Of a stretch of 32,184 nt of DNA, positions 13,494 to 18,805 are shown piece after piece (position 1 is the stretch's first letter; every line of letters starts with the position of its first letter). The position numbers and the translations under genes were made by a program. Origin of the DNA: Candidatus Pacearchaeota archaeon CG_4_10_14_0_2_um_filter_35_33 (lineage in GTDB: Archaea; Nanobdellota; Nanobdellia; Pacearchaeales; GW2011-AR1); assembly GCA_002792635.1 (NCBI GenBank), contig PFOR01000017.1, positions 1 through 32,184 of the forward strand. Direction: 5' to 3'. The notes under the pieces are model-generated. The model searched no databases. It was not told where the DNA came from and saw only the letters and a list, made by a program, of their open reading frames with translations.

Positions 13494-13525
13494 TTCTTCT
13501 AAATTGTATTCTCGAGGACAAGAAA

Positions 13526-13533
13526 GTTTAAAT
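13526..13533 (+). promoter_or_regulatory. TATA box of the nrdR-nrdJ operon
   Basis: gtttaaat is the only good TATA candidate ahead of nrdR. It predicts transcription from about 13555, immediately before the first NrdR-box-like site. Confidence 0.5.
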
Positions 13534-13560
13534 ACTAGAAAATTTTCTGTGTGTTGTTAC

Positions 13561-13576
13561 ATACAATTTGTTGTGG
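13561..13576 (+). promoter_or_regulatory. NrdR box 1 (operator candidate)
   Basis: The 16-mer at 13561-13576 reads atacaatttgttgtgg. It matches the published NrdR-box consensus (acaCwAtATaTwGtgt) at about 12 of 16 positions, including the outer C and G of the core. It lies just downstream of the predicted transcription start. Confidence 0.6.
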
Positions 13577-13590
13577 TTTTTTATTTTTTT
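13577..13590 (+). terminator. T-tract between the NrdR boxes (possible attenuator)
   Basis: Six T, one A, then seven T lie on the coding strand of the nrdR leader. Archaeal RNA polymerase terminates at such oligo-T stretches. Its place between the two operators could allow premature termination, or it may only be a flexible spacer. Confidence 0.3.
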
Positions 13591-13591
13591 A

Positions 13592-13607
13592 GCACAATAT
13601 GTTGTAG
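13592..13607 (+). promoter_or_regulatory. NrdR box 2 (operator candidate)
   Basis: The 16-mer gcacaatatgttgtag matches the NrdR-box consensus at about 12 of 16 positions, with the CAATATGTTG core. It begins exactly 31 bp after box 1, close to three helical turns, the arrangement typical of bacterial NrdR operator pairs. Confidence 0.65.
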
Positions 13608-13635
13608 TAACTCAGAAATTACAAAAAGAGGAAAA

Positions 13636-14079
13636 ATGATATGTCCGTATTGCTCAAACGATGAAACTAAGGTCACGGACAAGCGGGATACTGGTGAGTT
13701 TACACGAAGAAGGCGTGAATGTCTAAAGTGTAGGAATAGATTTACCACACATGAAAAGATAGAATCGAACCCCATAAAAGTTATAAAAAAAGGAGGTCGG
13801 AGAGAAGAGTTTAATAGGGTTAAGGTGAGAACAAGCATAGAAAAGGCATGTGAAAAAAGGCCTGTTAGCGCCGAAAAAGTAGAAAAGATGTTAACAAAAA
13901 TTGAAGAGGGGATTAGAAGAAGAGGTGGAGAAGTTAAGTCCGCCCATATTGGAGAGCATGTTATGAGGGAGTTGAAAAAGACTGATAAAGTAGCTTACAT
14001 AAGATTTGCATCAGTCTATAGAGACTTTGCCGACTTAAGTGATTTTAAAAAGGAAATAAGGGAGCTTGTTAAAAAATGA
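13636..14079 (+). CDS. nrdR: Transcriptional repressor NrdR
   Basis: The 147-residue NrdR has an N-terminal zinc ribbon (C3-P-Y-C6 and C29-L-K-C32, with the Arg-rich RRRREC stretch between) and an ATP-cone domain (about 47-137, starting PIKVIKKGGRREEFNRVKV). The ATP cone senses ATP/dATP and sets the oligomeric form that binds NrdR boxes. The open frame reaches back to 13504, but MICPYC is the universal NrdR start, and a purine-rich ribosome site (aaaagagga) precedes it. Two NrdR-box-like sites 29-75 nt upstream suggest autoregulation of the operon. It overlaps nrdJ by 4 nt (ATGA). NrdR is mainly bacterial and patchy in archaea, so past lateral transfer is plausible. Confidence 0.93.
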   Translation: MICPYCSNDETKVTDKRDTGEFTRRRRECLKCRNRFTTHEKIESNPIKVIKKGGRREEFNRVKVRTSIEKACEKRPVSAEKVEKMLTKIEEGIRRRGGEVKSAHIGEHVMRELKKTDKVAYIRFASVYRDFADLSDFKKEIRELVKK

Positions 14080-17000
14080 GTGAAGAAAGGAATTTAGTTG
14101 ATGATGGATTGATAAGCACAGATATTGAGATGAAGGGTGGGGGTGGCTTAGATGCTAGATTTGAACTTAATAGGTATTTTTCTCATGAAGGCAAGAGTCC
14201 TTTTGAATTTGGGATTAATGGAGAACCGATTAATTGGGTAAGAGAAAATGTAGAAGTTACAGATGATAGGGGAAAGGTTGTTTTCACACAACCAAATGTG
14301 AAGAGACCTGATTTTTGGAGCCAATTAGCTATGAAAGTTGTTGCAAGCAAATATTTCTGGGGCAATATGGAAAAGGGCGAGAGAGAAGATTCTATAGAAA
14401 AATTGATAAACAGGGTTAGTAGCTGGATGGGGCAACAAGCATATAAGCAAGGATATTTTGATGAAAAGCAGAGTTTAATTCTAAAAGATGAGATTGCTGC
14501 GATTTGTTTGAATCAGATGTGTGTGTTTAATTCTCCAGTCTGGTTTAATGTTGGAATACAGGATTATGACCCTGCTGCTGGTGGTGTTTCAGCTTATGTT
14601 TGGGATTTTGAAAATAAGACAGTTATTCCAGCTAAAAAAACAATGAATAGGCCTCAATGTTCTGCCTGTTTCATTCAAGGTGTTGAAGATAATATGGAAT
14701 CTATAATGGCAATACAAGTTGCTGAAGCTAATTTGTTTAAGGCAGGAAGCGGGACTGGAAGCAATAGATCCAATCTGAGAAGTTCTAAAGAAAGATTGAC
14801 TGGAGGAGGAAAACCTTCAGGACCTGTTAGCTTTATCAAGGCATATGATGCTTACGCAGGTGTCATTAAGTCTGGGGGGAAGACAAGAAGGGCGGCAAAA
14901 ATGGAAATCTTGAATATAGATCATCCTGATGTTCTTGAATTTATAAATTCCAAACAGACAGAAGAGAAGAAAGCGTGGGCATTAATCGAGCAGGGGTATG
15001 ACGGGGGTTTGAACGGGTCTGCATATGGAAGCGTTGCCTTCCAAAACTGTAACATGTCTGTTAGGGTAAGCGATGAATTCATGGAGACAGTTAAAAAAGA
15101 TGGGGTGTGGTGGACCAAGGAAGTTACGTCGGGAAAGAAATGTGAGAGCCATAATGCAAGGGATTTGATGCATGCGATTGCAGAAGGAACTCATATATGT
15201 GGGGATCCTGGGATACAGTGTGATACGATTATCAATAAATACCATACATGTAAAAATTCTGGAAAGATAAACGCTAGTAATCCTTGTGTGACTGGAGATA
15301 CAAAGGTTCTTCTAGAAGACGGAAGATGGGCAAGAATTGATTCAATTTTAGATAAAGAAAGCACCATACTGGCCAATACTGGGCTGATTAATAAATCAAG
15401 GATAAATGGCTCATTTGTTACAGGGGTGAAACCGGTATATTTGTTGAAGACTAAGAACGGCTATGAGTTGAAACTTACTGCAGACCATAAAGTGTTTACT
15501 GCCAATAGGGGCTTTGTTCCCGCATATGAATTGACAAAAAATGATTTTGTTCTTCTACCTGGAGTGCAGGTTGCTGAAGTGGCAAATGTGAAAGATAAAA
15601 TATTTTATCAGCTTCTTGGACTTTATCTCGGAGATGGTTGCGGAGGAAATATAAGCAATACAAGAGGTGTTCAAATTACCATGGACAAAGAAAGGGAAAT
15701 GCCTGTCTTAGAGAAAATTGCAGATTATGTTTCTTCAAACTACGAAAGAATTACACATAAGAATTCTTCGGCTGTTGTCCAGATTACAAATACCTCGGGA
15801 AAATTCACAATTACAAATAACAGTTTATTAAATAAAATAGGGGAATTTGTTGATTTGGCTCTTCCAGGACATAAGAAATGTGTTTCTGAAAAAATTTTCG
15901 GACTAACTCTTGGGGAACAAAAGCATATCTTACAAGGACTGTTTACTGCCGATGGAACTGTTGCAAATTATGGAGAAAAGTCTCAATATATTTCTCTTGA
16001 TTCAACAAGTCTGCAAATGCTTAAGGATGTACAAATGCTTCTGCTTGGATTTGGAATAAAAAGCAAATTGTATGAAAATAGGCGGGCGGGTAAAAACAAA
16101 GCGTTGCTTCCTGATGGAAAGGGAGGAATAAAAGAATACGATGTCAAAGAAATGCATTCTCTGAGAGTGTCACGAGAAGGGAGAATCAAATTTGAGAAGT
16201 TGATAGGATTTATGCCTGAGTCGTATAAAGCTGAAAAGCTGAAAAAAATGAATGAGAGTGTTGGAACTTACAAAGACAAACCAGTAGATTCTGTTAAGTC
16301 ACTGAACTATTTGGGTATAGAAAAAGTTTATGATCTTACGGAGCCTCTGACCCATACCTTTGTTGCAAATGGTATAACAATTCACAACTGTTCAGAGTAT
16401 ATGTTTTTGGATGATACTGCCTGTAATCTTGCTTCCATAAATTTAATGAAGTTCAGGACTAAAGATGGATTTGATGTTGAGAAGTTTAGAGAAGTTGTTA
16501 GAACTTATATCATTGTAATGGATTTAATTGTTGATGGTGCAAGTTACCCTGCTGCTAAGATTGCTGAGATGTCTCATAGATTCAGAACCTTGGGATTGGG
16601 TTATGCAAATTTGGGTGCTTTGTTGATGAGTTACGGATTGCCTTATGATTCTGATGAGGGAAGGGCAGTAGCTGCAGCAATCACTGCTATAATGGGCGGA
16701 GAGGCATATAAGACTAGTGCAAAGTTGGCTGGATTAGTTGGACCCTTTGCAGGGTACGAAGATAATAAAGAGTCTATGTTGAAGGTTATTGAAATGCAGA
16801 GAGAACATGTTAAAGATATAGATGTGGAGAAGATTCCTGGTAATTTAAGAGAATTAGTTAATGTAGCATGGGATTGTTGGAGTGACGCGTACAATATAGG
16901 AGAGAAAGAGGGGTTTAGGAATGCACAAGTAACTGTTCTTGCACCTACTGGGACAATTGCATTTATGATGGATTGTGACACTACTGGAATCGAACCAGAT

Positions 17001-18026
17001 ATCGCGCTTGTTAAATACAAAGTTCTTTCTGGAGGGGGGATGTTGAAAATAGTTAATAGGGGTGTTAAGTTGGCTTTGGAGAATTTAGGATATTCTGAAA
17101 ATGAGATTAATAGTGTTATAGATTATATTGATAAGAATGATACTATTGAGGGTTCTATTGTAAAAGCAGAGCATTTACCAATTTTTGATTGCGCTTTCAA
17201 ACCGGCTAATGGGACTAGGAATATTAATTACAAGGGCCATATAAGAATGATGGCTGCTGTTCAGCCGTTTATATCTGGAGCGATAAGCAAGACTGTTAAC
17301 ATGCCGGAAAGTTCGAGTGTTGATGAAATAATGGATGCATATATTTATGCGTGGGAGCAGGGGTTGAAGGCTGTTGCAATTTATAGGGAAAATAGCAAGA
17401 GAAGTCAGCCGTTGAATACTAAGAAGACTGAAGGGGAGAGAGTTAAAGTTGATAATCTTATTGGAAAAAGGCAGAAGGATTTGCCTCAAACCAGAAAGAG
17501 TATAACTCATAGATTTGATTTAGCAGGGCATAAAGGTTATTTGACTGTTGGGCTTTACGATGATGGAAGCCCTGGAGAAATATTTGTAACAATGGCTAAG
17601 GAAGGTTCTACTATCAGGGGATTGATGGATGCGTGGGCAAGGTCTGTTTCATTTAATTTACAGTATGGTGTTAGTGTTGATACATTGTTTAAGAGATTTA
17701 GACATCAAAAATTTGAGCCATCTGGTTTTGCAAAAAATGTTGAAGGTGGTGAATTAGACGCACGAGGAATTATAATAAGGTCTGCATCCTCTATTGTGGA
17801 TTATGTTGCCCAGTTTATGTTGAATAACTTTGGAACTAGTAAGGGAAAGGTTGAGTTTGAAATTAAGCAAATGGAAAAACCTTCGGAGGAGCAAAAAGCG
17901 TTGGATGATTATGGTAATGAAGGTTTGACATGTCCGTTGTGTGGCGGGCCTGCTAAAAGAACTGGTAATTGTGAAATGGTTTGCACTTTTTGTAAGCAAA
18001 CTACTAGGGGTGGGTGTGGGGAGTAA
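14076..18026 (+). CDS. nrdJ: B12-dependent (class II) ribonucleotide reductase with intein
   Basis: The 1316-codon frame encodes a 948-residue NrdJ plus a 368-residue intein (residues 404-771). NrdJ reduces ribonucleotides using adenosylcobalamin to make the active-site thiyl radical. Visible are PQCSACFIQGVEDN (cysteine of the reducible pair), the DDTACNLASINL strand, and the radical-site motif N-P-C-S-E, in which the Cys is residue 772 and the first residue after the intein. The C terminus carries a Cys-rich tail (CPLCGGPAKRTGNCEMVCTFC and onward to GGCGE) that likely relays electrons from thioredoxin, encoded 0.5 kb downstream. Spliced length matches the large NrdJ subfamily. It is second in an operon after nrdR and overlaps the next small gene by 1 nt (TAATG). 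Confidence 0.95.
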   Translation: MSEERNLVDDGLISTDIEMKGGGGLDARFELNRYFSHEGKSPFEFGINGEPINWVRENVEVTDDRGKVVFTQPNVKRPDFWSQLAMKVVASKYFWGNMEKGEREDSIEKLINRVSSWMGQQAYKQGYFDEKQSLILKDEIAAICLNQMCVFNSPVWFNVGIQDYDPAAGGVSAYVWDFENKTVIPAKKTMNRPQCSACFIQGVEDNMESIMAIQVAEANLFKAGSGTGSNRSNLRSSKERLTGGGKPSGPVSFIKAYDAYAGVIKSGGKTRRAAKMEILNIDHPDVLEFINSKQTEEKKAWALIEQGYDGGLNGSAYGSVAFQNCNMSVRVSDEFMETVKKDGVWWTKEVTSGKKCESHNARDLMHAIAEGTHICGDPGIQCDTIINKYHTCKNSGKINASNPCVTGDTKVLLEDGRWARIDSILDKESTILANTGLINKSRINGSFVTGVKPVYLLKTKNGYELKLTADHKVFTANRGFVPAYELTKNDFVLLPGVQVAEVANVKDKIFYQLLGLYLGDGCGGNISNTRGVQITMDKEREMPVLEKIADYVSSNYERITHKNSSAVVQITNTSGKFTITNNSLLNKIGEFVDLALPGHKKCVSEKIFGLTLGEQKHILQGLFTADGTVANYGEKSQYISLDSTSLQMLKDVQMLLLGFGIKSKLYENRRAGKNKALLPDGKGGIKEYDVKEMHSLRVSREGRIKFEKLIGFMPESYKAEKLKKMNESVGTYKDKPVDSVKSLNYLGIEKVYDLTEPLTHTFVANGITIHNCSEYMFLDDTACNLASINLMKFRTKDGFDVEKFREVVRTYIIVMDLIVDGASYPAAKIAEMSHRFRTLGLGYANLGALLMSYGLPYDSDEGRAVAAAITAIMGGEAYKTSAKLAGLVGPFAGYEDNKESMLKVIEMQREHVKDIDVEKIPGNLRELVNVAWDCWSDAYNIGEKEGFRNAQVTVLAPTGTIAFMMDCDTTGIEPDIALVKYKVLSGGGMLKIVNRGVKLALENLGYSENEINSVIDYIDKNDTIEGSIVKAEHLPIFDCAFKPANGTRNINYKGHIRMMAAVQPFISGAISKTVNMPESSSVDEIMDAYIYAWEQGLKAVAIYRENSKRSQPLNTKKTEGERVKVDNLIGKRQKDLPQTRKSITHRFDLAGHKGYLTVGLYDDGSPGEIFVTMAKEGSTIRGLMDAWARSVSFNLQYGVSVDTLFKRFRHQKFEPSGFAKNVEGGELDARGIIIRSASSIVDYVAQFMLNNFGTSKGKVEFEIKQMEKPSEEQKALDDYGNEGLTCPLCGGPAKRTGNCEMVCTFCKQTTRGGCGE
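15285..16388 (+). mobile_element. Intein with LAGLIDADG homing endonuclease in NrdJ
   Basis: The 368-residue intein starts with Cys (CVTGDTKVLLEDGRW, splicing block A), has a block B TxxH (LKLTADHKVF) and ends with VANGITIHN (blocks F and G, penultimate His, terminal Asn) followed by extein Cys. Two dodecapeptide-like endonuclease motifs are visible, LLGLYLGDG and LQGLFTADG, each with the acidic residue, so the homing endonuclease may be active. The insertion splits NP and CSE, the most conserved site of the reductase and its thiyl-radical cysteine. The enzyme is inactive until splicing occurs. Confidence 0.93.
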
Positions 18027-18493: not shown

Positions 18494-18805
18494 ATGGCTG
18501 TTAAAGATTTAAATAAAGAGAGTTTTGATGGGTTCGTTAAGAAGGGTGCTGTTGTTGACTTCTACGCTGATTGGTGTGGACCTTGCAAGATAATGAAGCC
18601 TCATTTTGAGAAAGCTTCTGAAAGCATTAAGGACGTTAAATTTGGTAAGGTAAATGTTGATGGCAATCAGGAATTAGCTCAGAGATTCCAGGTAATGAGC
18701 ATACCTACGACAATCCTGTTCAAAGACGGAAAGCAAGTGGATAGACATTCTGGAGCTTTGAATGAAGATATGATTAAAGAGATGGTTGATAAGGCGTTTA
18801 AGTAA
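18494..18805 (+). CDS. trxA: Thioredoxin
   Basis: The 103-residue cytosolic thioredoxin has the active site W27-C28-G-P-C31 (DFYADWCGPCKIM), the cis-Pro loop in MSIPTTILFKDGKQ and the classic FGKVNVDGNQELAQRF strand-helix. There is no signal peptide. It reduces disulfides, and here the probable client is NrdJ encoded just upstream, since class II reductases need thioredoxin or glutaredoxin to regenerate the C-terminal cysteines. No thioredoxin reductase is in the window. It has its own promoter (TATA 26 nt upstream). Confidence 0.95.
   Translation: MAVKDLNKESFDGFVKKGAVVDFYADWCGPCKIMKPHFEKASESIKDVKFGKVNVDGNQELAQRFQVMSIPTTILFKDGKQVDRHSGALNEDMIKEMVDKAFK

Follow-up and report, generated by a model that had tools for sequence, protein, structure and literature searches.

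The window, a stretch of 32,184 nucleotides, is one contig of the 0.78 Mb genome of Candidatus Pacearchaeota archaeon CG_4_10_14_0_2_um_filter_35_33, and it contains an nrdR-nrdJ operon on the forward strand. The first gene, nrdR (13636..14079), encodes an NrdR-type repressor of 147 aa with a Zn-ribbon and an ATP-cone (Pfam PF22811, PF03477; TIGR00244). The second, nrdJ (14076..18026), encodes a class II (B12-dependent) ribonucleotide reductase (RNR; Pfam PF02867, PF08471, PF12637), and its start overlaps the nrdR stop by 4 bp. Upstream of nrdR and on the same strand lie a core promoter (13522..13534), formed by the BRE-like element GAAAG (13522-13526) and the TATA box TTTAAATA (13527-13534), and two 16-mers that resemble the NrdR box, namely box 1, ATACAATTTGTTGTGG (13561..13576), and box 2, GCACAATATGTTGTAG (13592..13607). 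The promoter was assigned from its sequence and from its fixed distance in relatives. A putative Shine-Dalgarno-like motif, AAAGAGG (13625..13631, +), stands just ahead of nrdR.

Other elements surround or interrupt these genes. The nrdJ frame carries an in-frame intein (15285-16388, +) with a LAGLIDADG-type homing endonuclease domain (Pfam Intein_splicing, LAGLIDADG_3). In each of two congeners the nrdJ frame is shorter by about 350 codons, and the intein is therefore probably absent there. A thioredoxin gene (18494-18805, +) is located shortly 3' of nrdJ. The region that follows it, up to 21568 on the same strand, is restriction-modification-like, with an HSDR_N-like segment, an Eco57I-type N6 methylase and a TaqI_C specificity domain in split frames.

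The product of nrdR scores 169 bits against TIGR00244 (cut-off 124.65) and comprises a Zn-ribbon at the N-terminus, which has two CxxC pairs, and then the ATP-cone. Among solved chains, phmmer matched it to E. coli NrdR (9fzf, E=1.2e-35, with further chains at about the same level) and to 7p37 (8e-29), while its nearest named relatives are the NrdRs of Candidatus Pacearchaeota UBA92 and CG1_02_39_14, with 71-73% identity. NrdR of S. coelicolor contacts DNA through D15, R17 and an RRRR motif (PMC9110341). The protein encoded in the window has D15, R17, RRRR (24-27) and R35, that is, all the DNA-contact residues tested. Across 76 archaeal NrdRs there is no variation at C3, C6, C29, C32, R17, R25-R27 or R35, and 68 of the sequences also have D15.

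The two 16-mers were compared with ACACWATATATWGTGT, the bacterial NrdR box consensus. Each box matches it at 12/16 positions, giving a pair total of 24/32, and the boxes start 31 bp apart with a spacer of 15 bp; the coordinates, scores and distance reported in the initial annotation were all recovered. Both boxes contain the C4 and G13 core. In S. coelicolor, C4/G13 are the most important base pairs for NrdR binding, and inverting the conserved G-C pairs reduces binding at least 50-fold (PMC9110341). The published core expression of the NrdR box, C.W.AW.W.G (PMC12051234), is satisfied by box 2, and box 1 departs from it at one central base. NrdR pairs also require helical phase, with permitted spacers of 14-17 bp (PMC12051234), and the spacer seen here falls inside that range.

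Two such 16-mers could be a chance likeness in AT-rich intergenic DNA, since each box taken singly resembles the consensus only modestly, and isolated 12-mers that differ at one position are not commoner elsewhere in the genome than a reversed control pattern. The pair behaves differently. A pair score of 24 at 31 or 32 bp was reached by 0/2000 dinucleotide shuffles of the 250-bp nrdR upstream region, and the short pattern has two exact matches in the whole genome, which are box 1 and box 2 themselves. We also used a sequence-only profile of the operator pair, built from 30 relatives with the window's genus excluded. This leave-genus-out profile gave 26.2 bits to 13561-13606 (E = 4.9e-7 in the window, 1.2e-5 genome-wide), far above background, and ranked the nrdR operator site first in its own genome. 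The runner-up had E = 0.034, and the scan detected no other operator in this genome.

The spacing tells against chance as well. We collected an order-level set of 47 distinct nrdR upstream loci, the window's own among them, anchored each locus on its best box and sought the next-best box freely 17-60 bp to either side. The partner was found 30-33 bp from the anchor in 40/47 loci (21 at 32 bp, 17 at 31 bp), so the phasing that had been likened to that of bacterial paired boxes holds well beyond the window. In a wider class-level sample the partner stood at 31-33 bp in 21/30 loci, and in about nine of the 30 no pair could be clearly recognised at the canonical distance. Conservation of the two sites and of their spacing thus extends throughout the order and is less complete in the class. 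Neither of the outcomes that the initial annotation named as refuting, a lack of conservation in relatives or a matrix score at background level, was observed. The best conserved letters in relatives are C4 and G13, the flanks and spacer having diverged, and box 2 of relatives has both letters in 40/40 cases. With the shuffles, the leave-genus-out profile and this conservation taken together, a chance match is ruled out, and we give it practically no weight.

The two boxes are not equal. Among relatives the core expression was matched by box 1 in 10/40 and by box 2 in 34/40. The mean number of dyad pairs, of eight, was 4.6 in the promoter-proximal box 1 and 6.5 in box 2, making box 1 systematically weaker. 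That box 1 departs from the centre of the bacterial box might suggest that the palindromes serve another dyad-symmetric regulator and lie before nrdR by coincidence. However, both the sequence and the 31/32-bp spacing are known NrdR values, the NrdR contact residues are intact, and the sites track the presence of NrdR and RNR operons of two classes: the gene 3' of nrdR in relatives is either a class II RNR or a class III NrdD bearing its own ATP-cone, and the operator is the same. We therefore consider a different regulator very improbable and retain NrdR as the predicted ligand of the two boxes.

Scans of other genomes point the same way. In most NrdR-bearing relatives the top profile match is the nrdR promoter. 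In six relatives without a detected NrdR, seven RNR-gene regions gave no profile match at E<=1, and the same scan recovered known sites. Strong matches away from nrdR were considered as new regulon members (G034 C79, G045 C1:534802, G043 C22 and G006 C10) and rejected because they fall inside or beside unrelated coding frames. One further locus, L120 3450-3698 (G038 C46), has extra box-like matches 100-200 bp further upstream of nrdR, which perhaps form another operator, serving a divergently oriented gene.

We then consider the position of the boxes relative to the promoter. In the window, the TATA box TTTAAATA starts 34 bp upstream of box 1. When relatives were aligned on box 1 alone, a TATA box emerged at -34 to -27, together with an A-rich, BRE-like step at -38/-37. 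In 27/38 cases a TATA box with no more than one mismatch begins 32-35 bp 5' of box 1, compared with a mean of 1.8 and a maximum of 6 in shuffles (n=1000); across the class as a whole this distance seems, by eye, shorter and more variable. The placement of the boxes downstream of the promoter is thus a constrained feature. Archaeal TATA boxes have their centre near -26/-27, which would put the start of box 1 at about +3 to +5 and the end of box 2 near +50. Taking the TATA box as the sole guide to the start site, we infer that box 1 lies just downstream of it, in agreement with the position predicted in the initial annotation.

Boxes downstream of this start site would be transcribed, and the repeats might then work in RNA, as leader hairpins acting on translation or termination, instead of as DNA operators. 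Around 12 relatives have a Shine-Dalgarno-like AAAGAGG or GAGGT between the boxes (including L002, L013, L015, L026, L030, L039, L041, L049 and L050), so that box 2 sits between this motif and the nrdR ATG, an arrangement that would also suit a role in RNA. Nevertheless, a spacing fixed at about three turns of the DNA helix is unexpected of RNA hairpins, and both the conservation of the C4/G13 core and the co-occurrence with NrdR fit DNA binding. We see only a slim likelihood that the repeats act in RNA, and favour DNA operators.

In archaeal promoters, +3 to +50 is a classic location for repressor operators. This placement argues against the idea that NrdR binds here yet activates the operon, or acts weakly, rather than repressing it. 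Characterised NrdRs repress (PMC9110341, PMC12051234), and we hold activation or weak action to be quite unlikely.

No ATP-cone was detected by Pfam in the nrdJ product, and the one ATP-cone match in the whole genome is within nrdR. Given a class II RNR without a cone, NrdR therefore carries the sole detected ATP-cone. A class III RNR (NrdD) was sought in the same genome and not found.

We conclude that 13561-13607 is, with high confidence, a paired NrdR operator predicted to control the nrdR-nrdJ operon through dATP-dependent repression and autoregulation. The interpretation given in the initial annotation is supported, and this archaeon probably turns off its ribonucleotide reductase as bacteria do. 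For DNA binding, effector dependence and the block of RNA polymerase, our model draws on the characterised bacterial NrdRs (PMC9110341, PMC12051234, PMC12176259), and the archaeal repression step is modelled by analogy with bacterial NrdR and with other archaeal repressors. At high dATP, a tetramer of NrdR carrying dATP together with ATP (or ADP) would hold both boxes, with one Zn-ribbon pair per box and the boxes on the same helix face, about three turns apart. NrdR would kink the stretch between about +3 and +50, and we propose that archaeal RNA polymerase could, as a consequence, not load on or leave the upstream TATA/TFB promoter. This block would lower the production of both the reductase and NrdR. 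A drop in dATP would then release NrdR, allowing the operon to be expressed.

How widespread is this arrangement? According to the bacterial studies (PMC9110341, PMC12051234, PMC12176259), NrdR is rare among archaea or controls only a few archaeal RNRs. In an evenly drawn sample of 279 genomes of the phylum, NrdR scored above cut-off in 197, and the module is common there rather than a peculiarity of one archaeon. The literature searched, with most subscription papers beyond its reach, yielded no description of archaeal NrdR boxes.

In the NrdR tree, the order-level sequences cluster in a single supported group. Contamination of a metagenome-assembled genome (MAG) is an unlikely source of nrdR, because these sequences come from separate MAGs and form a supported clade, and because congeners share the locus. 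With the bacterial sample at hand, the deep forks toward bacterial NrdR are without support. Of the proposal that a DPANN archaeon has kept a bacterial regulatory module, the presence of NrdR and of a conserved operator stands, and the module may have been kept or acquired from bacteria. We lean, by a little, towards one ancestral dNTP switch in most genomes of the phylum, in which a bacterial-type NrdR would control an archaeal TBP/TFB promoter from a site at a set distance downstream of it. This switch would have been kept despite swaps between class II and class III enzymes, and NrdR would be the sole dATP sensor where the class II enzyme is without an ATP-cone.

The papers cited here (PMC9110341, PMC12051234, PMC12176259) deal with NrdR operators of bacteria only, and the present locus represents a complete, conserved, predicted regulon in an uncultured archaeal phylum. 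Here the action of a bacterial-type repressor on the archaeal transcription machinery could be tested directly, and the locus leads to a specific prediction about the control of DNA precursor supply in genome-reduced DPANN archaea.

Annotated NrdRs also occur in haloarchaea, in plasmid nrdR-nrdBA operons, where NrdR is likewise next to RNR genes with two conserved box-like palindromes upstream. In haloarchaeal loci L102, L103, L104, L128, L129 and L130, the 150 bp 5' of nrdR contain palindromes of about CACCAgATATTGCGG and CCACATaTgGGG, positioned downstream of a TTTATGT element. The leave-genus-out profile did not detect these haloarchaeal palindromes; they probably represent NrdR boxes of a second lineage of archaea. 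In contrast to the locus described here, the haloarchaeal NrdRs form a separate, long-branched clade and are associated with a class I RNR, and their boxes are about 29 bp apart and GC-richer.

The same dATP-sensing domain serves feedback on deoxynucleotide supply in ATP-cone-controlled RNRs. There the cone is part of the enzyme, whereas here it resides in the repressor and the class II enzyme is without one. Another close parallel is the bacterial NrdR regulon (S. coelicolor nrdRJ and nrdAB; E. coli nrdHIEF and nrdDG), which shares the paired 16-bp boxes, C4/G13 and a spacer of 15-16 bp. Bacterial NrdR is also a repressor with a Zn-ribbon, an ATP-cone and the same contact residues, and in S. 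coelicolor nrdRJ, as here, nrdR is the first gene of the RNR operon. Unlike the bacterial regulon, the archaeal locus has a TATA/BRE promoter with the boxes at a constant distance downstream, its box 1 is consistently the weaker of the two, and the genome has one RNR operon, with no second operator detected. The kind of system is thus known, and it is the archaeal phylum and the archaeal promoter setting that appear to be new.
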